Shown here in pieces: positions 14,542 to 61,659 of a stretch of 64,000 nucleotides of DNA. Each line of letters opens with the position of its first letter. Within the stretch, counting starts at the first letter, position 1. The notes under the pieces were generated by a model. The model was not told the origin of the DNA and did no database searches. It was given only the letters and a program-made list of their open reading frames with translations. The DNA lies in assembly GCA_014905825.1 (NCBI GenBank), contig JACGCN010000021.1, positions 620,001 to 684,000 of the forward strand. The letters are read 5' to 3'. The stretch is from Lyophyllum atratum. Lineage: Eukaryota > Basidiomycota > Agaricomycetes > Agaricales > Lyophyllaceae. The position numbers and the translations under genes were made by a program.

Positions 14542-14617
14542 GTCCCCTCCTCACACCACTCCGGTCATCAAGTTATCCAATCCACCAACAAACGCCCTTC
14601 TCGCTTAGATTTCCACA

Positions 14618-30135: not shown

Positions 30136-30143
30136 TATAAAAG
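30136..30143 (+). promoter_or_regulatory. TATA box of gene A (S2)
   Basis: TATAAAAG upstream of the S2 gene A copy, at the same spacing as in S1 and S3. Confidence 0.55.
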
Positions 30144-30216
30144 GTCCCCTCCTCACACCATTCCGGTCATCAAGTTATCCACCACCAACAAACGCCCTTC
30201 TCGCTTAGATTCCACA

Positions 30217-36427: not shown

Positions 36428-36672
36428 GGGTTGGAAGAGAATACGGGGTAGGCCCAGTGGACAGCGTAGTGGAAAGAGTAGGTGACTAGAAACGCGAACT
36501 GTAATCCGAGTCCTGAGAAAAACATTGGTCGGAAACGTCATGGCTCGGCGGCAGGTCTGTTTGTCTTTGGGCTTAGATTCAAATACCAAGCACGTATTAC
36601 GCCACCCTCTGCTGATGCTGGTAAGGTAGATAGAAGTACTACACAAGTAGAAAGATAAGATATATGTAGCGA

Positions 36673-37536: not shown

Positions 37537-37793
37537 GATGACTACGTCCTGTCCGCAGAGACGGTCGTTTGTGTCGCATTGTGGGCAATTTTATGCAAGT
37601 TCTGTGCACGTTTCAAATTAACCCATTCCAACGGTGTGAGTTGTCATCGATACACGGGCTTGAAGGGATACATCGGTGCAACGCGTTCGAAACGCTGTCA
37701 CAATAGGCATTGGCTTCCTGGACGTTGAGAGCAAACTCGTTTCAACCCGAATTGTAAAGGTGGGAACCAGAGAAGTTGAAGGCTGGTGTGAGG

Positions 37794-40700: not shown

Positions 40701-43700
40701 AAAGCTTCAGCTGAGTCTTTAGAGCCGCGCGCTACAGCCGCTACGATAATGGGCGGGATGCGTGGCAGCGGAATTGTAAGGAGCCATAGACGTAGCTATG
40801 TTGAAATAGCATTAGTGCTTTGAAAATAGTGTAAGGTTGATATATCACCTTATCGGCTTGATCGACCTTGGCATCCGCAAACACTCTGTCAACTTCGTCG
40901 AGCGACGAGACGCGAATCGGCTCGAGGTCGGTAGTTCCGAGAATGAGAAAAATCGATTTGATTCTTCGTAGAGAGCAAGCGCTGGCTCAAGTGCTGTGTC
41001 ATCCCAAGACAATGCCAGTGGACCGGTGTAAGGAATACTTTTCAAGAACTGCTCTAATGGCCTTCATGTTCTCGACGGAGAAGCCAGGGCTGAACTTGGG
41101 TTGTCGTGCTCGGATTTTGCCTAAAACATTGCTCAATATATGCAAGACAAGAATAAAGAATGTTACGCACTGCATGCTGCGAATTCCGCGGCCCCCAAAG
41201 TGCTTCCTGAAGCTTTGTAGGCACGGTTCGATGTCGAAGCGAGAACATTACAGAATTGATTGAAGCCGCTTGCATACTTCATGTTCTTCAGAGACTTCCC
41301 TTGCGTGATACGCGTTGTTTTTTAAAACCAAGGCTTCATCATCCCTAGGGCAACATCGTACTTTGCGTACGTGCATCAACAGCCCCGCGCGCAAACTTGA
41401 GCCACGGAGAATTGCCATCTTCCTAGAAACACACTGAAATTCAGCATTTATCGAAGGAATGAGTTGAATCTGCATACCTCTTCAACCAGCTGGCGTACAC
41501 CTTTGTATTTGAGATAGATAACTCCGAGTTCTGGACAACGATTCACTTTCGGCACATACTTCATATTCTCTTCTGATGGCATCTGGCGGTTCATAACGCG
41601 ACTTGGAACGTATGAAGCTTGCGAAGAGCGGAGCAGTTCTCGCACGGTTGAGGTTCCAAGACATCGTCAATGGCTTCGACGAGCTTCTTCGCAAGCTGTG
41701 GAATAGACTGCAGCTACGGCACCTCGGACAATTCTCCACCTAAAAGTTGCCTCCTCGCGACGAAGGACTGCCCGCTGCTTCTTCGGGGAGAGATCACGCC
41801 ATAAAAGATCAGTCTCGCTTCCTGGCCATAATTCTTTGATGATAGCTGCACGTCCACGTGCACCACCACCCAAGGCAGACACACGGCAAAGGTATCGGTC
41901 GATGCGGGGGTCCAAGTCCTTGGTCAGGCAGGCATGGGACCTGAGGCAACGGAGTGAACACAAGCGCGGGAGATCTTAAAGTAGAGCCGGGTGCGGACAC
42001 GGCGGTTTTCTTTGCGAAGAAGTCGGTGATGGACTTCGTGGTAAGACCCTTCATCGCTTTTTGCCTCTTTTGACACTTGTCTCCCTGTCGATGCTTAGAC
42101 CATCGCCCAATATCATACATGCAGCGCATCCTTATCCATTCCATGCAAACAGAGCAGTGGACCATGCGCAAGTCGTCATCTTGGAACATTGCTTTGGGAT
42201 CGACGTCAAGGACTTTATCGCGAAAAACCTGCAATGCGCTGTGGTTCGGAACGAAATCAGGACCACCGGCGGCCCGATTAAGCTGCTTGTGGTGTGCCCA
42301 GGAAGAGCCGCGCTTCGGTCCTGCCTTTCTGACGAGGCGGCGGCGGCGATTGGCCTCTTTGGACTCACGGGAGTCGGAGACGTCATCATCAGAATCATCT
42401 GTACGCGGTCGCTTTTTGGCTGTCTTGGGGACGATGGGCTGTGCTGGTGACGGATGAGGTGATGGTGAGGGCGCCATTTCATCTGCTAGCAAAGGTGATG
42501 GTGGCGAGGATGGGCGTATACCGAAATCAACACCATCAATTTCCATGGAGGTATTTTTCCAAAGAGCCGGTGCATGGTAAAGGCAAAGAGCATGTTTCTG
42601 AAGCGCTCGTAGGATTGTCAATAGTACTCTGTTGGATTAATGTCAGGAGTGAAAATAACGGTAGTGAATTTGCTGCCCACCTCGTCCTCATTGTCCTTGA
42701 TCGTGTCGGAAAGATGTAGAAACCATTCCATTCGTGCAATGACTGCAGTCCGCGCTGTCCATGCTTCGTGGGCGAGTAACACTGTTGCCAAATAACACAA
42801 GACTATGACACCGCATGAGAAGCTGTCGGATTGGAGTGGGATAGGAAGTGATTGGCCAAGCTTGAAAGAAGCGCCGTCATAGCCAAATGACTCGAGCCAC
42901 CACTGGAGTAAATCAAGCTGGTCTGTTGGTGGTAGCTTCTCATGACCGAGAGAGTCTCCGTACATGAAAGTACGATTCACAATATCTATCTTCAGGAGTG
43001 CCCAATGACACCTCGAAACATTGAGAGGGACGTAAATATCATCGACACTCCTGTCACGGAGCATCTTCTCTGTGGGAGAAAATGAAGCTGGGGAATAGGT
43101 GGTCTGACGTTGCTTTGCAACATCGAGTGTGCAGATCAGCTGGCAATTGGTGATTCGGACGCGGCTGTTGCTCTTGAGACGCCGGAGGATGAAGCTGACA
43201 CCAGAATCGATGAGGTCGTCATTGAGCCAATCATTGCTCAGCATGAGTGAAAGGTCCCGCGTGCTAAGTTGCACAGTGCGACTAAGGCTCGGTACTATTC
43301 CATCCCATGGAACATGCTCGAGGCGATCACGACAAGCTTCGACAATATCGGGAGTATGCTTGAAAAGACTGCCGGGCGCGTCATCAACAACGTTACTGAG
43401 CCAAGCCACCGCCTGCTCCCAGCGTTGGCGAGTGTTTGTGTAATAGGTGAAGTCACCCAGAAGCCGCTCCGCCCATAATGGGTATCGAGCTGCAGGATTC
43501 CCGGGGAGGCTGATGGAAAGATGGCCTGAAAGCCATGATTGATTAAAGGCGTTTCGTATAGCAGAAAGGAATGGTTTGGCGGCGAAAAAATGTGATCGAT
43601 GAGTCGAGGCGTCGCTGCTATCGCCAAGGACGTTCGGTATCTCTTTCGTGTACTGACAATCTTCCGCGACGGCGAGCTCAGTCATCATCTCGTTTGGGGA

Positions 43701-45023
43701 GAAATCATGTAGCAGCTTAGCAACAGAAAATGAGCGTGAAGATGGTATTAATCCTGCTCGAATACTAGGTGGGACCTGGCGAGCATGATTGCGCGCCTCA
43801 CGAACGACCGACGGCATGGGGTCCTTCCACTCGTGTCCACGCCCTATCCAGTCTCCAGCCACAAAGTCTTGAGGTAGCTGGTCATCCCATTCGGATTCCG
43901 AGTCGATAGTGATGGATGAGGAGGTGCCCTCGCCACCGCCCCAGAGCTGAAATCTTGGACGTAACGAGGATTTATCATCGTACTCGCCTTCGGAGCTCGA
44001 GCAGGGCTGCGTCTCGGGCATCTCGTAGTTGTCGAGGGTGCGAGTGCTGGGAATGGACTCCAAGCGATGCAGGGCGTCGTCGACAGGCTTGATCAAGGTC
44101 ATGTCATAATTGTGCGACTTCGGTTTTGTGGTTGAGGATTCGAGAACGGGACGACAAGGTCGTACTATCACGAGGTGAGCATCACTAAGACTTCATACGT
44201 TTTGCTGAAGCACTTACTGCGCTCTTTCATTGGGATGCTTCGGTTTCTCTCTCGCAAGAAGATTCGATATTGATAGACACGAAGTTGAGGGGATTTCAGC
44301 AAGTCGTCTATTTATCAACCGCACTAGTGTCCGGAAAAAAACCTGTAGAGCAGTCAAATTAACTGAGATGTAGGAACGAATTGAGATCATACGTGTTTCA
44401 TGACACCCAAATTTATTCCTTCAGGAATAGCCCAAGCTTTAAGCGTTAAGACTAGATCGTCATTGAGGATCGGGGTGGGGCAAACATGGCGTGTATATTG
44501 GACAGATACTGCCAGAATCCATCGTGGGACTCCAGATCAAATGAAAAACCATAGGCGTGAGCAGCGCAGAGGGCACAGACAAAGAGTAGCTGGCTATCGT
44601 GAAGGTTGTGGATAACATCGAAGCTCAAGTTTGTTGGTTTACCACGATTCGGATCTGGCCGATTTCGTCAACCATGTGATCACAGCGCTTAAAGTTTATT
44701 AGTTAAAGAGGCCCTCGACCAAAAGCAGATGATTTCACTCCTATCTAATTTATTGAACTTCGAGCACTAAGTAGTATAAGGGAAGATGCAATATGGACCG
44801 GTGTGGTATGGAAAGGGAAAAAATATCTGGCCAAAAAACAATTAACCATCTCGCCTGTGTCCGCACCCGGATCGGACGTTCAGGCGACGGTGCGTCATTT
44901 GGATCGGACATGGGCATGAATTTGGTCCAAAAGTACGCAAGTTTGGATCGGACCTAGGTCGATTTTGACACCCCAAAATGTCCGCACCAGGATCGGACCT
45001 TATGCGGCATATGCGGGGGTCCT
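37794..45023 (-). mobile_element. TE3: 7.23-kb TIR transposon, copy 3 (recombinant flanks)
   Basis: Full-length element with the same termini, but its flanks do not match: GTGTGAGG on the left (37786-37793) and AGCACGAT on the right (45024-45031). Both octamers belong to other copies, so TE3 arose by crossing-over between a right-locus and a left-locus element, not by insertion here. It is near-identical to the others outside 40.28-42.56 kb, where about fifteen small indels cluster. Confidence 0.95.
38168..44230 (-). pseudogene. Ulp1-transposase fusion gene, TE3 copy (indel cluster in the middle)
   Basis: Exons 1-2 (protease) and 6-9 match TE4 exactly in frame. Exons 3, 4 and part of 5 carry small indels, for example an extra C near 40285, a lost T near 40957, an extra A near 41030, an extra T near 41117, losses near 41152, 41214, 41337 and 41373, and changes near 41594, 41689 and 41928. 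At 41689-41691 it has an extra T but otherwise the C allele of TE1. As given it encodes an intact Ulp1 exon but no continuous transposase. Confidence 0.8.
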
Positions 45024-45699
45024 AGCACGATCACAAGATTGAAGCAAGACAAGGCGAGATAAAACACGGCGACTTGAATTCAACTGAAACTAGAGAAGTA
45101 CATAGACAGGAAGTCGATAGGCGGATTCTGTCGACGTCACTGGTTCGTCGTCGCTGTCTACTTCGATGTCGCTTGATTACCTCTATTTGGCTTGAATCTC
45201 CTCGTTCCCGCCCGACCTGGGGTTCAACGTTGAACGTTCAGGCCTTCCTTGGATCATCCACTATCCAGCCTTGCGCATCCTGACTGTCGCGATGCTGCGC
45301 ATCGATGTTGTATATCACGGCCACGGCGCAAAGCGGAGGTGTCAAGAAACTGCAAGGATCCAGATAATAGATATCGCCATTTCAGGCTGGTGACTTCCCT
45401 TTTGTACTCTATTTCTGTCAAATGGGCTTGACCCCCAGCTTGGACATCCCGGCTCGATACTCAGTACTCAGTACTCATCCATGGACATGCTATTGGGGAA
45501 CTGAGCCCTACGAAACGTCAAAGCGCAATGTATAGCGATCACCTCGAAATGGCTATTGTATGGCCAATAAAGTTACAAGACCGTTGATCTGGAGCTTTGA
45601 CACCGTGCGGTTGCCATTCTATTTCTTGGCACAATTGGTTGCCTCGCTGGTAGGGCCTTGTTCTGGTCTTTGTTAAGTCAAAGCGTCGACAACAAGATG

Positions 45700-45707
45700 T
45701 ATAAAAG
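45700..45707 (+). promoter_or_regulatory. TATA box of gene A (S3)
   Basis: TATAAAAG, 77 bp upstream of the ATG at 45784. The leader between them is pyrimidine-rich, as is common for expressed fungal genes. Confidence 0.7.
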
Positions 45708-45783
45708 GTCCCCTCCTCACACCACTCCGGTCATCAAGTTATCCAATCCACCAACAAACGCCCTTCTCGCTTAGATTTCCACA

Positions 45784-47042
45784 ATGTCCTCAGCGCATCG
45801 GATCGGCCGCCATACTATTTCCGTTCATACTCCCTCTTCACATCCGCCCAGATACCAACAGGTCCGCGTCGGGAACACCAACGGAACTTTGTATTCCACT
45901 CCCTCCTCCCCAACCACCTCCAGCAGCACGCTAGCCTTAGAAGACGACCAAATTAAGCTCGTATTTGCCGCTGAAAAACCAAACGACGCCACTCCCCACG
46001 ATCCCTATCTTACGTACTATGCAGGATCCAGCCCTGATCTCTCCTCGTTAAACAATCCCCTACCAGAAACCGAACTCAACCCCTGCGCAGTCCCATTCAT
46101 CCCTCAGCTGCCCCCAAAATCCCGACGGCTCGTTCGCCCAGAACCCGGAACCATGCTCAAGCCCCGCATGCGCAAGTGGCTGAGGACTTTCGGACTGGCT
46201 ACGCGGGCACCGATAGACCCCAAAGAAGTGTACTCGATGATCATCGTGGGCGCTGAGGACTGGGACCCCGAGCCCATGGCCGAGCTGGCGCAGGAGTTTT
46301 GCTGGCGCCTTGCAGAGGCTTTGCCCGAGGATCTTGAAGCTGCCCTTGCATTTCTGATGAAGCTCCACTCGCAGTTCAGGATGATGAAGAGCCAGGAAGC
46401 TGGGGAGTCCTTTGAGTGGCATCTCAAGGAGTTTATCCTGGGGACTTTCATCAGCGTCTGGAATGCGGTAAGCTTGCTACTTTATGTTATCTAGTACATG
46501 ATCTAACGCCGCGAGAGCAGAACAGCAACCCCGAAGCCGTGTCGTATAACTTCGTGCCTAAACCGCAATATCCCAAAGCGGCTATTCAACTCGCAGGCGT
46601 CATCGGAAAGCTCTATGCAAGGGGCTTCCTCGACAGCAAGAACGTCACCGACTGCTTAGAGGCGCTCGTCGCCAATTTCGTCTCTGTCGAGCATGCCGAC
46701 GCAATCGCTGCCTTGGTCCACAGCGCTGGTTCTTCATACTGGTTCAACCACCCCAACGGCCTCCCCCACCTTCATCGCTTCGGATCGGCGTTCACCACCG
46801 TTGCAAGTAAGTTGCGGGGCGAGATGAGCGTGCTCAACCAGCGTCGACCAGATGCGGAACTGCAGAATGTCCTTAGAAGCGTAGACGGCTGCTGCATGGT
46901 GTGGTCTGCCGAGATGAATGCCCATATGGCAGCAACAACGCAGATGCAGATGTCACCTCCTAGGCGCCATGACGGGTATTCCTCAGATCAACACTCGCAT
47001 CGCCCGCCACTTGGGTCCAGGATGCGGGGTGGAAGCTACTGA
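45784..47042 (+). CDS. Hypothetical protein A (401 aa, unrecognised family)
   Basis: Two exons (45784-46467 and 46521-47042) join in phase to 401 aa; the 53-nt intron is GT-AG. The N-terminal 125 or so residues are Ser/Thr/Pro-rich and look disordered. From about residue 130 it becomes a mostly helical domain (LKPRMRKWLRTFGLATRAP, EPMAELAQEFCWRLAEALPE, KLHSQFRMMKS, AIQLAGVIGKLYARGFL, CLEALVANFVSVEHADAIAAL). The repeated helix pairs recall MIF4G/HEAT-type folds, but that is only an impression. The C-terminus is Met/Gln- then Arg/Gly-rich (GSRMRGGSY). No signal peptide or membrane segment. A good TATA box and consensus intron suggest an expressed gene. Its function is unknown to me. Confidence 0.8.
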
Positions 47043-47258
47043 GTATTGTAACTAATAATTATAATCTGAACATTCATTCACGCATGTATTATATATCGCA
47101 TTTTCATATTCAACCTTACTAGCATGGTCCCACATGAAATCCGATGACGCCCATGAACTCTGAGAACATGCTTACCTTTGGCGAGAAAAAAACTTTTGAT
47201 AGATAGCTTCTTTCATCGGTCACCGAGCCTTCGTCAGCCCTTGACAAGCTTAGTGAGC

Positions 47259-47999
47259 TTAGTGATAATATGATATCGACGTATTCTCCCTCGGGCTTGG
47301 TGTGACTGCTGCCGCATTACGCGTGTGTGCCGCTCCATAGTACTCTAGCATCACCCGGCTAGGCGTGTACACAAACCACTCAATAGAAGCATAGCACCAA
47401 GAAAAGGAAGCAGCGCTGCCAACATCCTGGCAGCGCAGACTATTACATATTGGCGAAGAGGACGACTGGTGGGAGACATAGTCTATTTCTGAGGTGCTTG
47501 TTCTCCAACGGTGGGAGTTGAAGGATGCGGGTCCGCGAAGAAGAAGATCTAGAGGACCTACTGATGTGGGTATTTGTTGCCAGATTATGTGCCACCACAC
47601 GGCCGTCGTTGTTATATCGTCAACATGCGGAATGTGGTTAAATTTGACGGCAGTCCGCGGGAATCGTGGTTGGTTGTGGGTGTTGAAGTCAAGGAGTAAC
47701 CGCCGGCTATTGGCGTACACCATCCAGTCGGCACGCTCGTATCTGCTCGTATACAGATGTCGCTCACTCTTATGCGAGGCCTGGACAGAGACATTTCTTC
47801 GTCGATGGTTGAAGGAGTTCATCGTTAAAGCACAAACAGATAGCTTAGAGAGGGTCATGGGATCGCAGATAGCCTGGGAGGTCGAAGTCAGGATCAGACT
47901 TCGATTGACGAGAAGCCGTGCGAAAAAGGCAAAGGCTCTACATCTGATCGCGAGTGTGAGATTGTCGGTTCGCGAAGGCAACTGCTGCATCCACCTCAT
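47259..47999 (-). CDS. Unrecognised 246-aa ORF
   Basis: Open frame on the minus strand between gene A and the F-box gene, kept in S1 and S3 but broken in S2. It has no signal peptide, no repeats and no motif I recognise. It is rich in Ser, Arg and aromatic residues, with a moderately hydrophobic C-terminal stretch (AASFSWCYASIEWFVYTP). A 187-aa frame overlaps on the other strand (47494-48057). Either could be coding, or the stretch could be spacer. Low confidence. Confidence 0.3.
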   Translation of the reverse strand: MRWMQQLPSRTDNLTLAIRCRAFAFFARLLVNRSLILTSTSQAICDPMTLSKLSVCALTMNSFNHRRRNVSVQASHKSERHLYTSRYERADWMVYANSRRLLLDFNTHNQPRFPRTAVKFNHIPHVDDITTTAVWWHIIWQQIPTSVGPLDLLLRGPASFNSHRWRTSTSEIDYVSHQSSSSPICNSLRCQDVGSAASFSWCYASIEWFVYTPSRVMLEYYGAAHTRNAAAVTPSPRENTSISYYH

Positions 48000-48263
48000 G
48001 AATCCCCTATGGCCTCTTATTTCTTCTCCTCACTCCATACCATCATCCCATTCCTAGCACCGTATCCCTCACGGCTACCCCATTGCTAGCTCACCTCGTC
48101 CACAGGTCCTTCAATGTCCTCGGTGCGAGTCGTCACTTACTCATTTTTCCGATAGCGTTCTTATGACTAGCATATCCGCGGCCAGCTTCATACTCACCGA
48201 TGGTCAACCTTACCTCACACCCATTCTTCTGCCCACGCACAAGAACCACCTTACGATCCCTCG

Positions 48264-50063
48264 ATGCACCGTTACTCTTTCCGACCTGTTGGCATCTATT
48301 CCTTGCCCGTGGAGCTGCTACGCCGTGTGTTCACGCTCGGCGCAGGTTATGACTTTCCTTACGCCGAGTCTCCATTCCTGCTTAAACCGGATCAGGACTA
48401 CTACGCTATTCCGTCGTCCAGTTTCCAGCTGCTAGTGTCCCATGTCTGCCACCATTGGCGGCAAATCGCTCTCCTGACGTCATCACTCTGGAATGTCCTC
48501 CACTTCCGTGAACCTGCACACCTTCCAAGGGCGAAGGAGTACCTCACTCGTTGCTCGGCCTCAGGTCATCTCCTTGACATCCTTGTCGACACGGTCGCGG
48601 AGAGCGACCATATCCCCGGTGTTACCCTTTGCAGAGAAGAATTACACCAAGTCTTCGACATCATTCGCCCTCATGTGAAGCGATGGCGTGCCTTCCATCT
48701 CAAAATACGAGACCACGAGTGCAAGGCCACCGCTCGTCAGCATCTCAGTAGTTGCGGTCCCGCGCCGAACCTCGAAACACTCCAGTTGTATCATTTTGAG
48801 GATTACCGCACGTCACAGAACCTGTATCTCGCGACGTACAGACCACCAGTAATGGTTTTTAGTAATGAGCTACCTCTTTTAAAGAATGTCTCTTTAATCG
48901 GGGTCAACCTGCCGTGGTCACGAAGTCCGTACCTTGCCCGTCTTCACACCCTGGAGCTTGCCCTCCATCCGGAGACCATTCGACCTCCATACGAGGATTG
49001 GGAGAACATGCTGCGTAGCCCAGACCTGCAAACGCTCTCCTTGCATTACTCTGGACCACGCGTCGCGGACGGCGATACAAAACTAGTTTGGCCGGCCAGC
49101 AAGGAAAGGATCTACATCGAGTCACTCCAGAACCTCAGCCTGACCGACCTTGACCCCGACTATCTCTGTAGGCTCATGGGCCGCCTTGTCCTACCCAGGA
49201 TAAAGCAACTAAGCCTAGATCTACCCGACCAGGACTTTACGCCCTTCGTAGAACTCATTGCCCGCCCGTCACCCTCTACACAATCCCCCATCTCACCCAA
49301 CTCCCCTACCCCGCCTTATCCACATGCCTTCTCCCATCTCCCACTCCCCGCGCTCTCCCGGCTCGAGACACTCGTCCTTACCGCTCTCGAAACCAGCCCT
49401 GAGAGTCTTCGTAACCTGCTACGCGCGCTTCAAGAGCTCCGCGCACTTGAAGTCAATTTTGCCTGCATCAGCGACGCTTTGCCCGGCCTTCTCGTGGAGG
49501 GAATGGACGTCACCGAAGACGAGGATAGCCCCTCCTCTGAAGTGACGCTCATGGCTATTCGTCCCAAATCAGGGACAAAATCCCTTCCTTCATCTTGCCC
49601 CACCTTACCATGCAACGCCCGGACCCCCGTTCGTGTAAAACATGTTCCTTTGTTACCCCGTTTGGAGACGTTCAAGATGGCAGGCCTATCAGGTCAAAAG
49701 GTGGAAAAACTCATTCGTTATAGGGAATGCCAGGACACTGGATTGGCGCGCCGATGCGGAGAGGCTCAGCGGTCCTGTGGTAGATATGGCGTCTGTAGGT
49801 GGATCGTGAAGTGGAGCGAGAGGCAGAGAGGAGAAGACAAGGTCTTGGATCGTCTGGTGGACGACGGATGGGTAGGAGAGAATGGAAGGAGGGTGTATGT
49901 GGAAACTTACAACGAAGATGGAGATGAGGAGATGGACGATGATGACGACGAAGGGCAAGCAGAAGATGATGGATTGGACGACGAGGCCGCACAGCAGGTG
50001 GAAGATGATGGCGACGATGACGAAGATGAAGATGAAGATGACGCCGACGATGCCACAGTTTGA
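48264..50063 (+). CDS. F-box-like leucine-rich protein with acidic tail
   Basis: Intronless 599-aa protein. The N-terminus fits the agaric F-box-like domain (SLPVELLRRVF, then VSHVCHHWRQIALLTSSLWNVLHF), predicting recruitment to a Skp1-cullin ubiquitin ligase. Residues from about 150 to 430 form irregular leucine-rich units (NLETLQLYHFEDY, LHTLELALHPETI, LQTLSLHYSG, RLETLVLTALETS, ELRALEVNFACIS) that would bind a substrate. The last 50 or so residues are almost all Asp/Glu (EEMDDDDDEGQAEDDGLDDE). F-box-LRR proteins are heavily expanded in Agaricomycetes and most lack known targets. The start at 48264 places the F-box about 14 residues in. S1 and S2 copies are frameshifted. Confidence 0.85.
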   Translation: MHRYSFRPVGIYSLPVELLRRVFTLGAGYDFPYAESPFLLKPDQDYYAIPSSSFQLLVSHVCHHWRQIALLTSSLWNVLHFREPAHLPRAKEYLTRCSASGHLLDILVDTVAESDHIPGVTLCREELHQVFDIIRPHVKRWRAFHLKIRDHECKATARQHLSSCGPAPNLETLQLYHFEDYRTSQNLYLATYRPPVMVFSNELPLLKNVSLIGVNLPWSRSPYLARLHTLELALHPETIRPPYEDWENMLRSPDLQTLSLHYSGPRVADGDTKLVWPASKERIYIESLQNLSLTDLDPDYLCRLMGRLVLPRIKQLSLDLPDQDFTPFVELIARPSPSTQSPISPNSPTPPYPHAFSHLPLPALSRLETLVLTALETSPESLRNLLRALQELRALEVNFACISDALPGLLVEGMDVTEDEDSPSSEVTLMAIRPKSGTKSLPSSCPTLPCNARTPVRVKHVPLLPRLETFKMAGLSGQKVEKLIRYRECQDTGLARRCGEAQRSCGRYGVCRWIVKWSERQRGEDKVLDRLVDDGWVGENGRRVYVETYNEDGDEEMDDDDDEGQAEDDGLDDEAAQQVEDDGDDDEDEDEDDADDATV

Positions 50064-50837
50064 AAATGCCCACATATCTATCGCCTACGACCTGCAATGG
50101 GATACCCTCTATCACGCAATACCCTCCTTGCGATGCACCTCTTTATTCGTATCTGATACGCGCATTCTACCGAAGCGGAAACTGGTATGTCGTTCATTAT
50201 ATGTACGGACTTCCATCATGGCACTATATATATTTGCATACTTTTACTTTTTACCTCGTCAATTTGGATCATGTATACTGGTATATCTGTAGGGTTTACG
50301 TGGAAGTGCGGCAATTGTATTTCTTACAGCTTGGTGTTTCTTGTTTAACTGGTTTAAATTACGTTCCAGCAATGCGTCCTGGGCTCGAACCCAGTTGCCT
50401 TGTCGGTTATCGCAATGTTTTATCTGAATGAGAGTGCGCAACGTCTACTCAGAAAAATGGGGTGTTCCGTTTTAGTATTGTGCGAGGGGGGTTTATAACT
50501 TCCAAGGCATCATTACACCCCAACAGTGTACCAAATCCGTAACGGCTGGTGTCGAGACTAAATGCGTCCTGAAGAATCCTGGTACCTTATCTCCAATTTT
50601 ATGAGTTGGGCTTAACATACATTATTGCGACTAACTATACTCATACGCGCAAAGACAGGTTGCAGTACAATAAACATAACAGCTATAAATGATGATCGGT
50701 CTAATGATAACGTTTAGCATGTCCAGTGCTCCCCGAATCTAAGGAGAGGTCCTCGATTAAAAAGGATGTCTACTCACTGAACCCGATAAAAGAAAGCAGC
50801 GGTCAAGTGGCATCAACCATAAGAACAAAGCAACAAT
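50064..50837. other. Convergent intergenic spacer
   Basis: About 770 bp between the 3' ends of the F-box gene and the K+/H+-exchange-related gene. Present in all three S copies. It is AT-rich and holds the 3' UTRs and a 16-nt hairpin (CTGGGCTCGAACCCAG) near 50379-50394. No gene or RNA gene could be supported. Confidence 0.45.
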
Positions 50838-52011
50838 TCATAGGACACTCCTCCCACTCTGCACCCGCACTCTTGCCTGTTCCACAGCGCGCAGCAGATC
50901 GGCGCCAGCGCTTGAGCCTAGTCCAAAGATATTGAGGATAGCCGGGACAGCGTCGCGAGTTAGCAGAACTTCGTGCTGCAGGGGTTTAGACTCGGGCTTG
51001 GAGGTGGCTTCGTTTTTGTCGTTCTCTAGTGATTCCGCTGAGGTTATCAGGTGGTGATTTGGAGAGAATTCTTTGTATACACCATCCAGTGCTTCGCTTG
51101 CCTCAGGGACAATGACACCACTATCCAAGAGACCTTGGAGATATTGCGAGGCTCTATAGGCTGTTTTGGTTATGATAAATGGCTGAAACACATGTAGGAA
51201 GGGGTGGGCACACCTTTGTAGTGTGACCATGATCGCCATGCGCAGAAGAAGAAGGGAAGGTTCGGAATTATTGCTAATGTTATATAGGTCTAAGTCAACG
51301 GTTGCGAGGCAGGAAGCGTTTTCCACAACGCACGGATAATCATGAATGGGGCCATAAATGGTGCGATAACCATCCACATGTAAAAGCCCTTTCTATGTCG
51401 AGGTGTCCGGTATGCAACCAGTGTGCGTAGCTCATCCAAAGTAACGGAGTCAGTGGTTATTGATGGTGGGTATATAAGAGGGATCTGGGGTGGTTGTTTG
51501 GAAATTCAGAGACGCGAAACGCGGTACAGATGAACATACCCTAGTTCCTGCTTGTTTTTCTTGGCCGGACACGTCAGCGATGCTGGGCCCGAGAGCGGGG
51601 TTGATGCCCTTTAATGCAAGTTCTTCAAACTCTAAGCGGTCTACTAGACGCTCGCCAACTTGAAACACTTTTAACTGCATTTCGGGATTGAGTTAAAATA
51701 AGTACATGAGAACGCGACGCGAATAAGAGGAGATCGACCTTCCAACCACCTTCCGCCTTCCCAAAGCCTGCCCATGTGTCCCCCGCCTTCGTGGATACCC
51801 AATTGACAATACCCCCTTCTGGTATCCATCGTGATCGGGATCCCTCGCCCTCGGAAGGTTGGGGTGTTGGCGGTGTTGGAGGAGATATTTGAAACTGATA
51901 ATATGTTAGAGGTCGAGCAGCTGCCGTACTGGGTGAAGCCTTGATTTTCGGCCGGGTGAGGGGTATGGCGATGATGCGCAATTTGCGCAAAGCTTTAGGA
52001 GCTATTGACAT
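50838..52011 (-). CDS. Mitochondrial K+/H+-exchange-related protein
   Basis: Member of the fungal mitochondrial K+-H+ exchange-related family (yeast YDL183C type), inner-membrane proteins linked to potassium/proton exchange and matrix volume. Five exons (52011-51739, 51674-51573, 51484-51334, 51273-51214, 51160-50838) join in phase to 302 aa. Recognisable blocks are the N-terminal LRKLRIIAIPLT, STKAGDTWAGFGKAEGGWK, LKVFQVGERLVDRLEFEELA, IPLIYPPSITTDSVTLDELR, HRKGFYMWMVIAPFMAPFMI leading into IIPNLPFFFCAWRSWSHYK (two hydrophobic membrane segments), and AYRASQYLQGLL followed by a soluble C-terminus. Only this splicing preserves the PFFFCAWR block. Amplified to three copies here; S1 and S2 versions are frameshifted. 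Confidence 0.88.
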
Positions 52012-52256
52012 GGGTTGGAAGAGAATACGGGGTAGGCCCAGTGGACAGCGTAGTGGAAAGAAGTAGGTGACTAGAAACGCGAACTGTATCCGAGTCCTGA
52101 GAAAAACATTGGTCGGAAACGTCATGGCTCGGCGGCAGGTCTGTTTGTCTTTGGGCTTAGATTCAAATACCAAGCACGTATTACGCCACCCTCTGCTGAT
52201 GCTGGTAAGGTAGATAGAAGTACTACACAAGTAGAAAGATAAGATATATGTAGCGA

Positions 52257-53120
52257 CTATTCAGAAGACCCGTTACACAGTCCAGATGAGGGGGGTAATT
52301 TCTCTCCGTGGCCATTGGAGTGAGGTATACCGGCTCTCCGCAACTCCCGGCCGCGTTTCATCTCCCTCCGGCTCAATGCCTGGGTTTGCCTTTCGAGGTA
52401 GGCAACCACCCATCCCAAATAAATGAGAAGAACAAAGAAGACCCAAGTGAGCAACGCGCGGGATGCCTTCAGGCTCCAAATAGTGTCGTTTTCTCGAGTA
52501 AATAGAATGGCCGAATACGCAATGATTGGGATGCTCGGAATCCTCATCAGGGCGTACACCCAGATGTTAATCACTCGAAGTTTTTCCTTTCGCCCCTGCC
52601 ACACTTGATTCCCGATAAAACCGACGTCCATCTCCTGATGAGCAGCCAGAATCCACATGAAGTCCCCCGGGATTCCACTAACGAGAGTCGTGAACGGGAT
52701 GTACAGAAGTTCGAGGGTGTTGAGATAGAATGCGGAGAGAAGCATAGCGAGGGATCCTAGGTGATGGTACATGTAGCCGGGGTATAGATCCAGGCGGTTG
52801 AGCTCTGAAACCCACAAAACCCCACGCGAGGTGATGCATATTTCGGCGGAAAGGGAAAGTGGCTGGCCATAAGGCTCATGGGCAGCGAATGGGGAGAGTC
52901 GTGTATGCTTCCAAAGCGAATTGGCGCAAAATGGAAACGAGGAAAGGGAGATGAAGGCCCCTAAAAGCATGCCAAAATATACGGTCTCTTTGCGAGAGGC
53001 TCGCAATGCGCGGCGGAAGTCGATGCGGTGGAGGTACACGGAAACGAAGTAGCCAAGGAATTTTTCGACGAGATAATAGACGGTGAGCGCAGCAAAAAGG
53101 TTGAACGAGTCGGAAGGCAT
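52257..53120 (-). CDS. Multipass membrane protein, possibly TLC-like
   Basis: An intronless 287-aa frame with about six or seven hydrophobic segments (for example FGMLLGAFISLSSFPFCANS, LGSLAMLLSAFYLNTLELLY, ALMRIPSIPIIAYSAIL, LLTWVFFVLLIYLGWVVAYL). A YPGYMYHHLGSLAML stretch with paired histidines recalls the conserved HH of TLC-domain lipid-handling proteins. The C-terminal 40 residues are basic and polar. I am confident it is a membrane protein and unsure of the family. Its ATG lies about 257 bp from the end of TE4, so the GTGTGAGG insertion cut into its promoter region; what was upstream is now beyond 60614. Identical in S2; frameshifted in S1. Confidence 0.75.
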   Translation of the reverse strand: MPSDSFNLFAALTVYYLVEKFLGYFVSVYLHRIDFRRALRASRKETVYFGMLLGAFISLSSFPFCANSLWKHTRLSPFAAHEPYGQPLSLSAEICITSRGVLWVSELNRLDLYPGYMYHHLGSLAMLLSAFYLNTLELLYIPFTTLVSGIPGDFMWILAAHQEMDVGFIGNQVWQGRKEKLRVINIWVYALMRIPSIPIIAYSAILFTRENDTIWSLKASRALLTWVFFVLLIYLGWVVAYLERQTQALSRREMKRGRELRRAGIPHSNGHGEKLPPSSGLCNGSSE

Positions 53121-53377
53121 GATGACTACGTCCTGTCCGCAGAGACGGTCGTTTGTGTCGCATTGTGGGCAATTTTATGCAAGTTCTGTGCACGTTTCAA
53201 ATTAACCCATTCCAACGGTGTGAGTTGTCATCGATACACGGGCTTGAAGGGATACATCGGTGCAACGCGTTCGAAACGCTGTCACAATAGGCATTGGCTT
53301 CCTGGACGTTGAGAGCAAACTCGTTTCAACCCGAATTGTAAAGGTGGGAACCAGAGAAGTTGAAGGCTGGTGTGAGG
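53121..53377. promoter_or_regulatory. Residual promoter region of the membrane protein gene, cut by TE4
   Basis: The 257 bp between the membrane-protein ATG and the left end of TE4 must hold its leader and proximal promoter. The same fragment lies before TE2 and TE3, so in every copy this gene has transposon DNA immediately upstream. No TATA box is obvious. Confidence 0.4.
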
Positions 53378-53674
53378 AGGACCCCCGCATATGCCGCATA
53401 ATGTCCGATCCGAACTCCTCAAATTTAGCCCAATGTGTCCGCAACATTTTGGGCCAAATGTGTGCGCACCAGGATCCGACCTCGTCATTTTTTTTTCCAG
53501 TGTACGCAACATAGATCGGACATTGGTACAGGCGGCATATGTACGCACCATCGGATCGGACATCAGGGCGAGCAGGATGTGTACGCATTTAGGATCGGGG
53601 TCCGTACGCGAGGGGGAGATGTCCGCATTCCAGATCGGACATCTGGGATAATAGAATATGTCCGCATTGCAGAC
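53378..53674. repeat. Left TIR and subterminal repeat array of TE4
   Basis: After the 34-bp TIR, several copies of a word related to ATCGGACAT or its inverse follow, for example at 53515-53523, near 53554, and near 53632-53642, interspersed with GTGTACGCA/GTCCGCA words. Matching arrays occur at the same place in TE1-TE3. Clustered subterminal words of this kind are typical transposase-binding sites. Confidence 0.75.
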
Positions 53675-53751
53675 TAGTATAGTACTAATAGTAATAGACA
53701 AGACATAGATATTATAGTAAGGAGGTCCATACGTATTAGCGAGGGAGTGAG

Positions 53752-56700
53752 CTACACTCGATTCTCATCGTCGTCAGAGACATCTTCGTCTTCATGGTCT
53801 TCATCAGCCTCCGGCTCTACAAGAGGAACATCCTGCTTCGCCGCTTTCTTCCAGGCCTTGACCTCCTTAACGAGATCCTTCACTAATAGAGCTATAAGGA
53901 CGGACTGAGCTTTGAGTTTCTGCATCATTTCGAATGAAAAATTGCAGAGATGAAGCAGCGAAACGGGGTGATCATCGGTTGTCGAGATATCCTGGCGTGT
54001 AACGCCGGAACAAGACGCAAGTGAAAAGAGAATGTGTGTTGCCGGGATTTGTAGGAATGTTGAACAGTGTAGAGGAGCCCCGCAAGATAGTGATGAGTAT
54101 ATGTGGCCAGAGAACGGGCGATACACCCGGATGTTGATATACGATGGCGCGCCCACACTATCGATGCTCGGTACCCATTCATGCGGAGCGCTTTTATAGT
54201 TTGCTTGAGAATAAATGGTGATAACTACGAGTGAAATTCGCATTAGGATATGGCTGGAAAAAGATTCAATGATTACTGACCTTCACCGAAGATAATTTCG
54301 GTTGTCTTGGGATGGCGAACCAAAACAAAATGGCCAGGCAACAACGGATTGAAGCTACTTATGTTTGCTGTCATTATGTTATCATGGATACCCGTGCGAT
54401 GAAGGGCAAGGAGTACACGTTGTCGAATAGTAACCATTGCCTATTGCAATCCAGATCAGTTAAGATGCCGATGGAATTGTCAGGGTTAGGACTCACTGAT
54501 GCGTGTACATTCCTTAGCGCTGCCTTATTCCTGGCCCGTGTTCCGCCATTGATGCTTGCAGCAACAAAAGTACCTGTGTGACGTACACGTCGATCGGCAC
54601 CAGTGGTCGCATTGAGCTTCTCATTCTCAGGAACAAGGTTTGCCAGCCGCATGAGAAGGGCTTCACGGATGGAACGTTCTGGCGGAGGTGGGTTGTGAAA
54701 CTCGCGTCCGTGTTCTCGAACTGCCTTAGCAGTTGATTTGGTCTGGTGGCGGATTCGTTCGGCAACCAAGCTTTCGCGCAAAAGTTGACTGTTCTCGACC
54801 AAGATAAGTGGCTGATGCACAGGAGTCGTCGTTACCTGGCCAGCGATGTGAATGAAGGATGGAAAGAAAACTCGAAAGCTTGGCATACCTTGGAAGATAG
54901 TTGAACCTGGAGGGCTTCAGCAATGTTCTGGCGGACTTCTTCAAAGCAATTTTCGGGTGTGTCCGGGAGATTTTCGCTGCAAAAGTGGAAGATAAAGTAA
55001 CACGACTGTCACTTGAAGAAGTGCTCACTTACATGGATAGAGACCTCTCGACGTCATCAGCAGCGATGGCGAGCTCGCATGTCTCGAAGGCATCCTCGTC
55101 AGCACCAGTCTTGAATGATACTGATTCATAGAGGGTAAGAAGCTGAGCGAGCGTCCGTGGGCCTTGAGACATCGGTGGTTTCATCTTCTTCTTCTTGGCA
55201 TCTGAAAGGACGGGGTGAGCGTACTCGGAAAGCATGAGCTCCGCATCGATGCCAACTGCTGCAAGAAGTTGCTTTGCTTCTTTGAAAGCATGGTCCGAGG
55301 CACGCGCCAAGTCAGCATCGCTGGGATACCGCATCAGCTCTTGAAGATCCAGGTCATCGGCATTGAAATATGTGTGGTGATAACCAGCGGCGGTCTGCTG
55401 GGTCTGCTCGTCATGCGTCAAGTCTTGAAAATCGCCCATAATGATGATCTGTAACTTCGGATTCATGTGGAGAACATCGGCGTAGTTGAAGTCTTTCTTC
55501 TGTGTACGCATGACACCGAAAAAATGTTCGCAAGCCTCCGTCGAGTGAAGCCAAGGACATAAAGGGTATTGGGAATAGTATTTTCGATAGATGGAGATAA
55601 GCGACAGAAGGCTGTCGCAGCAGATGAGGAAGATGTCGTATGACTCTCGGGAGATGAACTGGACATTGACATTGTAATCTGGATGTTTGACAACGTGCGT
55701 GTGCCACGCCATGAGGAAAAATCGGGCGCGCATAACCATCTTGGCACGTTGGAAGTGACTAATGTTTCTGTTCTGCCATGCGTCGATGAGCTCGCCAAAG
55801 ATGAAGAGGTAAACGGAGAGTGCACGATTTTCCGGATATGTTGAAAGGTTGAAATCAAGCGCTGCAGCCGACAGCAATCGTGCTGCAGCACGGTCATCCT
55901 GCTTGTCGACATTCTCGACGTCACGCCTAAAAAGAGGTCCGAGGGTATTCGCGGCCAGTTCGCGCACTTGCGCAAAAAAGATGACGAAGTTGGACAACAC
56001 AATATTTCGCGCCCCTGTCAACAACTGATTTCGAGATGTCTTTGCCGCATGCTTGCTATCTTGGACTTTAACAAAAGGGTAACGTCCACGTGCGAGCGGG
56101 ACTTTGAGGTAAATGTTGCAGCCAGGGTTGGGATTGGGAATTGAGAAAACTAGATGTTCGGGCGCTGAGTCGCAAATGATGTCCTGGATTTTACGCTCTG
56201 TCTCTGTCCCGTCACTTGCTTGTGATACTGTGTGAATGCCCTGGTCGTGCAACATCTCGTCAAGTTTGAAATGCAATTGAGACAAAGCTTCAGCTGAGTC
56301 TTTAGAGCCGCGCGCTACAGCCGCTACGATAATGGGCGGGATGCGTGGCAGCGGAATTGTAAGGAGCCATAGACGTAGCTATGTTGAAATAGCATTAGTG
56401 CTTTGAAAATAGTGTAAGGTTGATATATCACCTTATCGGCTTGATCGACCTTGGCATCCGCAAACACTCTGTCAACTTCGTCGAGCGACGAGACGCGAAT
56501 CGGCTCGAGGTCGGTAGTTCCGAGAATGAGAAAAATCGATTTTGATTCTTCGTAGAGAGCAAGCGCTGGCTCAAGTGCTGTGTCATCCCAAGACAATGCC
56601 AGTGGACCGGTGTAGGAATACTTTTCAAGAACTGCTCTAATGGCCTTCATGTTCTCGACGGAGAAGCCAGGGCGGAACTTGGGTTGTCGTGCTCGGATTT

Positions 56701-59700
56701 GCCTAAAACATTGCTCAATATATGCAAGACAAGAAATAAAGAATGTTACGCACTGCATGCTGCGAATTCCGCGGCCCCCAAAGTGCTTCCTGAAGCTTTT
56801 GTAGGCACGGTTCGATGTCGAAGCGAGAACATTACAGAATTGATTGAAGCCGCTTGCATACTTCATGTTCTTCAGAGACTTCCCTTGCGTGATACGCGTT
56901 GTTTTTAAAACCAAGGCTTCAATCATCCCTAGGGCAACATCGTACTTTGCGTACGTGCCATCAACAGCCCCGCGCGCAAACTTGAGCCACGGAGAATTGC
57001 CATCTTCCTAGAAACACACTGAAATTCAGCATTTATCGAAGGAATGAGTTGAATCTGCATACCTCTTCAACCAGCTGGCGTACACCTTTGTATTTGAGAT
57101 AGATAACTCCGAGTTCTGGACAACGATTCACTTTCGGCACATACTTCATATTCTCTTCTGATGGCATCTGGCGGTTCAACGCGACTTGGAACGTATGAAG
57201 CTGGCGAAGAGCGGAGCAGTTCTCGCACGGTTGAGGTTCCAAGACATCGTCAATGGCTTCGACGAGCTTCTTGCAAGCTGTGGAATAGACTGCAGCTACG
57301 GCACCTCGGACAATTCTCCACCTAAAAGTTGCCTCCTCGCGACGAAGGACTGCCCGCTGCTTCTTCGGGGAGAGATCACGCCATAAAAGATCAGTCTCGC
57401 TTCCTGGCCATAATTCTTTGATGATAGCTGCACGTCCACGTGCACCACCACCCAAGGCAGACACACGGCAAAGGTATCGGTCGATGCGGGGGTCCAAGTC
57501 CTTGGTCAGGCCAGGGCATGGGACCTGAGGCAACGGAGTGAACACAAGCGCGGGAGATCTTAAAGTAGAGCCGGGTGCGGACACGGCGGTTTTCTTTGCG
57601 AAGAAGTCGGTGATGGACTTCGTGGTAAGACCCTTCATCGCTTTTTGCCTCTTTTGACACTTGTCTCCCTGTCGATGCTTAGACCATCGCCCAATATCAT
57701 ACATGCAGCGCATCCTTATCCATTCCATGCAAACAGAGCAGTGGACCATGCGCAAGTCGTCATCTTGGAACATTGCTTTGGGATCGACGTCAAGGACTTT
57801 ATCGCGAAAAACCTGCAATGCGCTGTGGTTCGGAACGAAATCAGGACCACCGGCGGCCCGATTAAGCTGCTTGTGGTGTGCCCAGGAAGAGCCGCGCTTC
57901 GGTCCTGCCTTTCTGACGAGGCGGCGGCGGCGATTGGCCTCTTTGGACTCACGGGAGTCGGAGACGTCATCATCAGAATCATCTGTACGCGGTCGCTTTT
58001 TGGCTGTCTTGGGGACGATGGGCTGTGCTGGTGACGGATGAGGTGATGGTGAGGGCGCCATTTCATCTGCTAGCAAAGGTGATGGTGGCGAGGATGGGCG
58101 TATACCGAAATCAACACCATCAATTTCCATGGAGGTATTTTCCAAAGAGCCGGTGCATGGTAAAGGCAAAGAGCATGTTTCTGAAGCGCTCGTAGGATTG
58201 TCAATAGTACTCTGTTGGATTAATGTCAGGAGTGAAAATAACGGTAGTGAATTTGCTGCCCACCTCGTCCTCATTGTCCTTGATCGTGTCGGAAAGATGT
58301 AGAAACCATTCCATTCGTGCAATGACTGCAGTCCGCGCTGTCCATGCTTCGTGGGCGAGTAACACTGTTGCCAAATAACACAAGACTATGACACCGCATG
58401 AGAAGCTGTCGGATTGGAGTGGGATAGGAAGTGATTGGCCAAGCTTGAAAGAAGCGCCGTCATAGCCAAATGACTCGAGCCACCACTGGAGTAAATCAAG
58501 CTGGTCTGTTGGTGGTAGCTTCTCATGACCGAGAGAGTCTCCGTACATGAAAGTACGATTCACAATATCTATCTTCAGGAGTGCCCAATGACACCTCGAA
58601 ACATTGAGAGGGACGTAAATATCATCGACACTCCTGTCACGGAGCATCTTCTCTGTGGGAGAAAATGAAGCTGGGGAATAGGTGGTCTGACGTTGCTTTG
58701 CAACATCGAGTGTGCAGATCAGCTGGCAATTGGTGATTCGGACGCGGCTGTTGCTCTTGAGACGCCGGAGGATGAAGCTGACACCAGAATCGATGAGGTC
58801 GTCATTGAGCCAATCATTGCTCAGCATGAGTGAAAGGTCCCGCGTGCTAAGTTGCACAGTGCGACTAAGGCTCGGTACTATTCCATCCCATGGAACATGC
58901 TCGAGGCGATCACGACAAGCTTCGACAATATCGGGAGTATGCTTGAAAAGACTGCCGGGCGCGTCATCAACAACGTTACTGAGCCAAGCCACCGCCTGCT
59001 CCCAGCGTTGGCGAGTGTTTGTGTAATAGGTGAAGTCACCCAGAAGCCGCTCCGCCCATAATGGGTATCGAGCTGCAGGATTCCCGGGGAGGCTGATGGA
59101 AAGATGGCCTGAAAGCCATGATTGATTAAAGGCGTTTCGTATAGCAGAAAGGAATGGTTTGGCGGCGAAAAAATGTGATCGATGAGTCGAGGCGTCGCTG
59201 CTATCGCCAAGGACGTTCGGTATCTCTTTCGTGTACTGACAATCTTCCGCGACGGCGAGCTCAGTCATCATCTCGTTTGGGGAGAAATCATGTAGCAGCT
59301 TAGCAACAGAAAATGAGCGTGAAGATGGTATTAATCCTGCTCGAATACTAGGTGGGACCTGGCGAGCATGATTGCGCGCCTCACGAACGACCGACGGCAT
59401 GGGGTCCTTCCACTCGTGTCCACGCCCTATCCAGTCTCCAGCCACAAAGTCTTGAGGTAGCTGGTCATCCCATTCGGATTCCGAGTCGATAGTGATGGAT
59501 GAGGAGGTGCCCTCGCCACCGCCCCAGAGCTGAAATCTTGGACGTAACGAGGATTTATCATCGTACTCGCCTTCGGAGCTCGAGCAGGGCTGCGTCTCGG
59601 GCATCTCGTAGTTGTCGAGGGTGCGAGTGCTGGGAATGGACTCCAAGCGATGCAGGGCGTCGTCGACAGGCTTGATCAAGGTCATGTCATAATTGTGCGA

Positions 59701-59813
59701 CTTCGGTTTTGTGGTTGAGGATTCGAGAACGGGACGACAAGGTCGTACTATCACGAGGTGAGCATCACTAAGACTTCATACGTTTTGCTGAAGCACTTAC
59801 TGCGCTCTTTCAT
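53752..59813 (-). CDS. Ulp1 SUMO-protease / DDE-transposase fusion protein (1,875 aa)
   Basis: Nine exons (59813-59801, 59747-58264, 58211-57063, 57007-56432, 56378-55033, 54976-54889, 54835-54497, 54440-54281, 54224-53752), with eight GT-AG introns of 52-57 nt, join in phase to one frame. Domains: disordered N-terminus; Ulp1/C48 protease around residues 300-490 with WLND and catalytic His391 (CHWALLKID), Asp408 (YGDSLG), Gln449 and Cys455 (QSDSFSCGV); basic NLS near 570-605; BED-like C-x2-C-x17-H-x5-C at 657-684; PIP-box-like TKSITDFF at 696-703; candidate DDE core with Asp1023/1024 (LSWDDTAL), Asp1130 (ASDGTETER) and Glu1355 or Glu1358 (STEACEHFFGVMR); then a C-terminal domain (GHFVLVRHPKTTEIIFGEV) and acidic tail. 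The last Asp/Glu motifs resemble P/THAP9-type transposases. Ulp1 peptidases are known in some transposons, but this order in one protein is not one I know. An extra 5' exon cannot be excluded. Confidence 0.9.
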
Positions 59814-60440
59814 TGGGATGCTTCGGTTTCTCTCTCGCAAGAAGATTCGATATTGATAGACACGAAGTTGAGGGGATTTCAGCAAGTCGTCTATTTATCA
59901 ACCGCACTAGTGTCCGGAAAAAAACCTGTAGAGCAGTCAAATTAACTGAGATGTAGGAACGAATTGAGATCATACGTGTTTCATGACACCCAAATTTATT
60001 CCTTCAGGAATAGCCCAAGCTTTAAGCGTTAAGACTAGATCGTCATTGAGGATCGGGGTGGGGCAAACATGGCGTGTATATTGGACAGATACTGCCAGAA
60101 TCCATCGTGGGACTCCAGATCAAATGAAAAACCATAGGCGTGAGCAGCGCAGAGGGCACAGACAAAGAGTAGCTGGCTATCGTGAAGGTTGTGGATAACA
60201 TCGAAGCTCAAGTTTGTTGGTTTACCACGATTCGGATCTGGCCGATTTCGTCAACCATGTGATCACAGCGCTTAAAGTTTATTAGTTAAAGAGGCCCTCG
60301 ACCAAAAGCAGATGATTTCACTCCTATCTAATTTATTGAACTTCGAGCACTAAGTAGTATAAGGGAAGATGCAATATGGACCGGTGTGGTATGGAAAGGG
60401 AAAAAATATCTGGCCAAAAAACAATTAACCATCTCGCCTG
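59814..60440. other. Right arm of TE4: leader/promoter of the transposase gene
   Basis: About 630 bp upstream of the transposase ATG, conserved in all four copies. It should hold the promoter and 5' leader. In-frame sequence just upstream of the ATG is open for about 27 codons back to a TAA with no further ATG, so a spliced upstream exon is possible but not supported. No clear TATA box was seen. Confidence 0.45.
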
Positions 60441-60606
60441 TGTCCGCACCCGGATCGGACGTTCAGGCGACGGTGCGTCATTTGGATCGGACATGGGCAT
60501 GAATTTGGTCCAAAAGTACGCAAGTTTGGATCGGACCTAGGTCGATTTTGACACCCCAAAATGTCCGCACCAGGATCGGACCTTATGCGGCATATGCGGG
60601 GGTCCT
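60441..60606. repeat. Right subterminal repeat array and TIR of TE4
   Basis: Four copies of GGATCGGAC in direct order (60452-60460, 60484-60492, and near 60527 and 60572), spaced about 32-45 bp, the last one part of the TIR. Each is preceded by a GTCCGCA, GTGCGTC or GTACGCA word. The same array is present in TE1-TE3. Confidence 0.8.
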
Positions 60607-61659
60607 GTGTGAGGTTTAGAGGCCCTAACGGAGGATGCCAATTATCTCCGGCATCATACATATTACGGACAAATTTTCTCAAGCAGGGCTGAGCACGGAC
60701 ATCGATATCTCTGTGAGAGAGAGTCAGGACGGATCATGATCGAAAATCACTGAAACAATACCATCATACAGAATGACAAGAACGAGACGCGATGACTGGG
60801 ATATTTGGCACCTTCGCCGTGGCACATCTCTTCCTCAGACATCATGCATCAGGAGCGGGTCGAGCTGAGGAAAGTTTGAGTAAAGTCTCCATCGATTGCT
60901 GCCAACTGCTTTGGCCGACTAAGGACTTGTTGTGGGTACTGGCAGCGCACGGTTGATTCAAACTCCGATAGCAGCGGTCCCACACGCCAAAAGACACGAT
61001 TTTTTGGCTAGCCACGGCAGAGCACAATCAAGTAACATTGAGGGGAAGTTTGTATGGTGGATTTGGTTAGAAACTTCATTCTACATGTATTCTAGATTGC
61101 AGAACTCAAAAAAATGTCACGATGATGGTTATCCTGTTTTCACTTTTGTCATTACACAATATTTTGGCCCCAGAAACTTAATTTTGTAATCTAGAATACA
61201 AATAGAATGCCATTTGACGCGTGCTACAGGAATTGATTAGGTCCTAAATGACCTGGAACAGGCTGCCACGGGGTCGTCGAATTGTTGGGCAAACGCACGC
61301 TTATGTCATCAAATTAACGCGTCGAGCGCGCCTCGCCGTTGCTGGTTACCCCGCGCTGAAAGTTTTTGCTCACAAAACACGTCCCTGCCACTTAGTTCAT
61401 ATAGAGACATAGTTTCGAGTATGATTGGTGTGCCGGAGCATTGTCAGGAGGTGGTGCACGTCGATATCCAGGATTTGCCACGAAATCATCAGAAATGCCA
61501 TTACATAAGCTCACACATTTCGGATCGGCTTTGCCAGTACCCACTTGTTGAACTGAAGTTGGTAACTGGTTCAAGCGGACCGGGGTTTGCCGGTTTCATT
61601 GCACGTGATTAAGCGCAGCTTGTCGTCGTCAACAGGCCTCCTCCTCGTTACTCCACACG
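60607..61659. other. Unique intergenic region right of the array
   Basis: About 1.05 kb from the TE4 target duplication to the syntaxin ATG. Its first 105 bp also occur displaced after TE2. It holds a small inverted-repeat element (61077-61209) and presumably the syntaxin promoter. No frame has splice or motif support. Confidence 0.5.
61077..61209. repeat. 133-bp inverted-repeat (MITE-like) element
   Basis: The left arm 61077-61100 and right arm 61186-61209 are inverted copies over 24 nt with about three mismatches (shared core TGTATTCTAGATT). The interior is 85 nt and AT-rich. It could be a small MITE or a chance hairpin. I see no convincing target duplication. Confidence 0.45.

Follow-up and report, generated by a model that had tools for sequence, protein, structure and literature searches.

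The 64,000-nucleotide (nt) window analysed here (contig JACGCN010000021.1, positions 620,001 to 684,000 of the forward strand, assembly GCA_014905825.1 of the mushroom Lyophyllum atratum) contains a long gene that lies inside a complete DNA transposon. An initial annotation of the window, made from the letters alone, had read this gene as a nine-exon fusion of a SUMO protease (Ulp1) with a DDE-type transposase, possibly from an undescribed transposon family. Its strand and extent, minus and from 59813 down to 53752, were borne out. The element and its gene are laid out as follows, with positions counted within the window and strand given where one applies.

53378-60606, minus strand: complete DNA transposon of 7,229 bp, copy 4 of an array, with terminal inverted repeats (TIRs) and target site duplications (TSDs)
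53370-53377: left 8-bp TSD, GTGTGAGG
60607-60614: right 8-bp TSD, GTGTGAGG
53378-53411: left TIR, 34 nt, beginning AGGACCC
60573-60606: right TIR, 34 nt
53378-53707: left subterminal region with four GATCGGAC repeats
60277-60606: right subterminal region with four GATCGGAC repeats
53752-59813, minus strand: transposase gene, modelled from splice sites and homologs
59801-59813, minus strand: exon 1, uncertain
58264-59747, minus strand: exon 2, Ulp1 domain
58339-58815, minus strand: Ulp1/C48 peptidase domain, residues 316-474, with His391, Asp408, Gln449 and Cys455
57063-58211, minus strand: exon 3, zinc motif
57657-57740, minus strand: BED-like C-x2-C-x17-H-x5-C zinc motif, residues 657-684
56754-57007, minus strand: exon 4; its segment at about residues 924-958 aligns with a weak P-type helix-turn-helix (HTH) match of the homolog P0001 (sub-threshold PF12017)
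56703-56753, minus strand: 51-nt intron kept in by the initial annotation
56432-56702, minus strand: exon 5, with Asp1006 (codon 56585-56587)
55033-56378, minus strand: exon 6, coding for the helical insertion domain and the greater part of the RNase H fold, with Asp1113 (codon 56211-56213), Asp1164 (56058-56060), His1167 (56049-56051), Asp1256 (55782-55784) and Glu1341 (55527-55529)
54889-54976, minus strand: exon 7
54497-54835, minus strand: exon 8
54281-54440, minus strand: exon 9
53752-54224, minus strand: exon 10, C-terminal region

As proposed, the open reading frames (ORFs) join into one continuous frame through GT-AG splicing, but the eight introns and nine exons became nine introns (51-56 nt) and ten exons, and the product is 1,858 rather than 1,875 amino acids (aa) long. 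The surplus 17 residues came from retaining the in-frame segment 56753-56703, which we take to be an intron because these residues are absent from all nine homologs displayed beside the window protein. Exon 1 is only 13 nt long and found no support among homologs; Met26 is an alternative start. In a Pfam scan of the window protein, Peptidase_C48 was the sole domain (residues 316-474, E 1.3e-7, above the cut-off), and the full His-Asp-Gln-Cys set ascribed to it is present and conserved, as is the zinc motif at residues 657-684.

The TIRs bound the 7,229-bp element and are 97% complementary to each other, with the octamer GTGTGAGG directly outside both ends. GATCGGAC occurs eight times in the element on either strand, four times in each terminal 330 bp and never in the middle, and was absent from the 18.4 kb of host sequence in the window (repeated host segment counted once); these repeats are candidate transposase-binding sites. 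Elsewhere in the genome, four short copies of 410-501 bp with the same ends lie on contigs C75, C1, C35 and C70, and the 8-bp duplications around them are all perfect (ATCCCATC, AGGAACAG, TAATAGGT and GCGTCAAC, respectively). A distantly related second element, on contig C61, is 6,183 bp long, also begins AGGACCC and lies between two copies of CGTGTTCC; its protein matches the L. atratum database protein P0060. In total, the duplication was perfect at all seven sites where both ends were found, and together with the inverted repeats this shows the transposon identity first suggested for the gene. At two further relatives (contigs C86 and C130) element ends were looked for and not found.

To describe the protein family we assembled 115 distinct proteins from three protein searches (47, then 7 new and 61 new), a number that is a lower bound, as the two mushroom searches scored only candidates sharing most words. 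Grouped by search and similarity, they comprise clade A (43 proteins, including the window type), clade B (63) and a Rhizophagus set of nine. A FastTree tree built on the core, with 115 rows, unites the 106 mushroom sequences in one group with support 1.0, and within it clade A with the window protein forms a group with support 0.991; clade B is also a single group, weakly supported at 0.309. The protease-transposase fusion is likewise found elsewhere: the first protein search alone yielded, from some 30 species, single annotated proteins that align over both protease and core. Counting only proteins with a letter at the alignment column, the Ulp1 residues are conserved in clade A (His 42/42, Asp 42/42, Gln 39/39, Cys 39/40) and in clade B (His 45/46, Asp 44/46, Gln 49/50, Cys 47/49), where the 13-17 gaps among the 63 proteins are in part those of short gene models, P0062 among them. 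None of the nine Rhizophagus proteins has a letter at the column of His, Asp or Cys. Of the 92 mushroom proteins in which all four zinc ligands align, 91 show the spacing C-x2-C-x17-21-H-x3-5-C at the zinc site; from this spacing we take it to be BED-like, and Pfam zf-BED gave no match to it. Core residues are close to invariant among the homologs, with D1006 in 113/114, D1113 in 111/113, D1164 in 112/113, H1167 in 113/114 and E1341 in 109/110.

The assignment of the core comes from structure. We modelled the relative P0062 and the window's exon 6 and compared both with known folds, and for both the predicted core is of the P element type, at 11-13% identity to P element transposase in the structural alignments. 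The P-like core proposed at the outset is thereby upheld. The layout is that of the P superfamily, with an Asp on beta-1, an Asp at beta-4, a D(2)H pair at the border of the insertion and a Glu on alpha-4, these places being read from the secondary structure of the models and not from residue-level superposition. The initial annotation had named as counter-evidence a structure prediction lacking an RNase-H-like fold with the proposed acidic residues; in our models the candidate D-D-E residues, all conserved, sit in an RNase H domain. For the C-terminal domain, strands appear at residues 1034-1080 of the P0062 model, and no convincing fold match was found. Just ahead of the core, at residues 1097-1131 of P0001, the P-type HTH model PF12017 matched below its cut-off, as it did in 5 of 84 scanned homologs altogether (1/26, 4/27 and 0/31). 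A profile search of the genome with PF21787 returned no match and was uninformative, as the control was also silent.

In connection with cofactor use, P transposase contacts GTP via residues including F443, D444, N447 and D528 (PMC7776569). In our family a conserved motif, Leu-(Phe/Ile/Val)-(Asp/Glu)-Ala-Trp-x-(Asn/Ser), places D1256 85 residues ahead of E1341, compared with 87 for D444 ahead of E531 in Drosophila P; and E1338 stands three residues ahead of E1341, as D528 does ahead of E531. Position 1338 is acidic in 41/42 clade A and at least 54/63 clade B proteins. The spacing of these acidic residues, kept in the mushroom clades, makes GTP dependence possible.

The element at 53378-60606 is the last of four full-length copies spaced about 15.6 kb apart in a tandem array that spans 6628-60614. 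The initial annotation had noted neither this array nor the intact ends of the element. GTGTGAGG stands at both ends of copy 4, as it does for copy 2; the remaining parts of the array are these.

6628-13857, minus strand: copy 1, AGCACGAT on both sides, its own insertion event
22224-29451, minus strand: copy 2, GTGTGAGG on both sides
37794-45023, minus strand: copy 3, apparently recombinant, with GTGTGAGG as its left and AGCACGAT as its right flank
13956-22223: host DNA that separates the two insertions, with further copies at 29559-37793 and 45122-53377

The mismatched TSDs of copy 3 point to recombination between two insertions, and the array would have arisen from two insertion events about 8.4 kb apart, recombination between them to give copy 3, and further tandem duplication. 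That the two insertions are close and in the same orientation suggests local transposition; P elements likewise transpose locally, over about 50-150 kb (PMC7776569). We found no further full-length insertion in the 64.8-Mb assembly, where our counts are lower bounds. The array itself could contain an assembly error. A comparison of the four copies gave 21 indel and 12 substitution columns, with private indels in copies 1-3 and no private difference in copy 4.

We consider it highly probable that the element is an autonomous cut-and-paste transposon, and that its single protein is a transposase of the P-element type which has a SUMO-protease-like Ulp1 domain at its N-terminus and, at the place of the THAP domain of animal P elements, a BED-like zinc motif. 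In such a transposon, the zinc motif and the HTH would bind the terminal and subterminal repeats. D1006, D1113 and E1341, conserved and at the positions described above, would hold the metals for catalysis in the RNase H fold, with D1164-x2-H1167 at the border of the helical insertion domain. Excision would be followed by insertion with an 8-bp stagger, of which the duplications are the footprint. As for Ulp1, our analysis gives about an even chance, provided that the transposon is of this kind, to what seems its most likely role: it would act in cis and strip SUMO off the transposase, or off chromatin and repair proteins at the element, and thereby relieve SUMO-dependent silencing or aid repair. 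Ginger1 and Mutator elements also have Ulp1, and the authors of the Ginger study proposed that domains of this kind might serve to activate repair factors, either while transposition takes place or afterwards (PMC2836005). The Rhizophagus proteins do without Ulp1, which suggests that the protease is accessory to the core reaction. A more ambitious version, in which a fungal P-type lineage is GTP-dependent and its mushroom members direct the same-chain SUMO protease against SUMO-dependent silencing or repair control at cut chromatin, so that the transposase would bring along an anti-silencing enzyme of its own, strikes us as rather unlikely.

Several observations weigh against the P-type transposon and its proposed workings. 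Beyond the sub-threshold PF12017 matches in 5/84 homologs there was no sequence-level match to known P transposases; the window protein had no PF12017 match at all in its Pfam scan; and sequence-profile searches of PDB (alignments A1 and A5) gave C48 proteases and no P element, so that the assignment to P rests on structure. Only the model of P0062, a protein 28% identical to the window protein over exon 6, covers the first strand, which bears Asp1006, and what precedes it. With respect to GTP, the Asn of the conserved motif lies four residues past D1256, compared with three for N447 past D444, and all seven Rhizophagus proteins with a letter at the position of Asp528 have Ala there. Rhizophagus relatives, if active, would imply that SUMO cleavage and the Asp528-type contact are dispensable across the lineage. 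Finally, copies 1-3 have their private indels, which are perhaps assembly errors; most of the differences are of a single base, so sequencing error is possible.

The alternative that survives best is a superfamily in its own right, with P, or P plus hAT, as its sister group, which would share the P fold and the 8-bp duplications and merit a name of its own. It would account for the lack of an above-cut-off match to any Pfam P model, for a TIR that begins AGGACCC in both families seen in the genome, and for a zinc motif unlike THAP, and we regard it as improbable. hAT itself (Hermes) has in common with our element the 8-bp TSD and an RNase H fold with a helical insertion; its C-terminal dimerisation domain was not listed in the Pfam scans of the window protein and 84 homologs.

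A second alternative concerns the protease only, namely that Ulp1 cuts its own chain, for instance near a conserved Gly-Gly after the zinc motif, and so frees the transposase. Ulp1 enzymes cleave after Gly-Gly, here protease and transposase share one chain, and the Gly-Gly is invariant in 27 clade A proteins, all of which would fit. However, in the P0062 model the Gly-Gly (residues 40-41) lies between two confidently predicted helices (block predicted local distance difference test, pLDDT, over 80) and thus looks structural, and the Rhizophagus relatives have no Ulp1. We therefore think self-processing very unlikely.

We give hardly any credence to the proposal that the element belongs to the Kyakuja-Dileera-Zisupton (KDZ) group and captured an Ulp1 gene. 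KDZ matches are abundant in this genome, some of them adjoining an Ulp1 match, KDZ elements are mushroom transposons with 7-8-bp TSDs, and Dileera produces 8-bp duplications; but none of the 109 genome matches to the Pfam KDZ model (not all above the cut-off) falls on the element, hhalign found no similarity, its KDZ profile being a thin one built from four sequences, and structure, in a comparison set without a KDZ structure, points to P, the core having D(2)H and a P-type fold. KDZ membership was rejected on the null result of the KDZ model on the element together with the null hhalign result, weak as the four-sequence profile makes the latter. The same near-zero credence goes to a host gene or gene-model fusion that is not mobile, since the two full-length insertion events in the genome and the private indels in three of four copies, which would fit it, are outweighed by the intact TIRs and TSDs, the short copies that were mobilised, seven duplicated target sites that contradict it, and the recurrence of the fusion in some 30 species in the first protein search.

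The closest known systems are the Drosophila P element transposase (PDB 6P5A/6PE2) and THAP9, of the P superfamily. With Drosophila P our element shares acidic residues at spacings like those of D444 and D528, and its 8-bp TSD at 7/7 sites is that of the superfamily. The TIRs of the P superfamily have internal repeats bound by transposase, while the present TIRs are accompanied by subterminal repeats with putative binding; and to the GTP cofactor and 17-nt staggered cleavage of the superfamily corresponds here the acidic-residue spacing only. Unlike Drosophila P and THAP9, the protein is fungal, is 1,858 aa long, and has an N-terminal Ulp1 and a BED-like C2HC motif in place of THAP, a domain absent from the Pfam listings for the window protein (E up to 10) and for 84 homologs. 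Ulp1 peptidases are also carried by, or accompany, the transposase proteins of Ginger1 and Mutator-like elements; Ginger1 differs in that its Ulp1 is C-terminal, on a Gypsy-integrase-like core (PMC2836005). The parts are known and their combination was not found in print; we class the element as a transposon of the P type, or of a lineage that is sister to P, which carries a predicted SUMO protease. Searches of the open-licence literature, judged by titles and the opening lines of abstracts among the matches listed, turned up no description of a fungal transposon of the P type with Ulp1; the earlier epithet "undescribed" holds to the extent of these searches, which did not include Repbase.

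Among animal transposons the P elements are the classic example. Of all transposases, theirs is said to be the only one that uses GTP (PMC7776569). The fold-level match in mushrooms extends the P type far past the fly and offers another lineage for tests of GTP use. The conserved SUMO-protease domain, in turn, opens a direct test of why unrelated transposons (Ginger, Mutator-like, KDZ-linked and the present one) hold SUMO or ubiquitin proteases. The homologs were named in the protein searches only as hypothetical, uncharacterized, unnamed or Ulp1/ubiquitin-like protease family proteins, and transposons may therefore hide as protease genes.

Some further observations touch on these subjects. 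The Rhizophagus proteins P0046-P0054 (P0046 with 40 member sequences), with the same core and no Ulp1, are candidates for a further mobile family. Two homologs have gene models with additional domains, a Pre-SET motif in P0028 (Amylocystis lapponica) and GNAT acetyltransferase domains in P0086 (Mycena galericulata), from either capture by the element or gene-model fusion. At three places in the genome, with equal scores, about 2 kb separate a KDZ match and an Ulp1 (C48) match (C69:616096-618919, C77:63202-66025 and C87:302760-305583), and KDZ elements of this genome thus seem to carry Ulp1 as well. Outside the elements described above, C61:769890-770102 (L073) has an Ulp1-like ORF of 316 aa that by eye resembles the clade A protease and perhaps belongs to another transposon. 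Lastly, a membrane-protein-like ORF of 305 aa, without a Pfam match at E <= 0.01, occupies window positions 52257-53174, about 200 bp from the insertion site.
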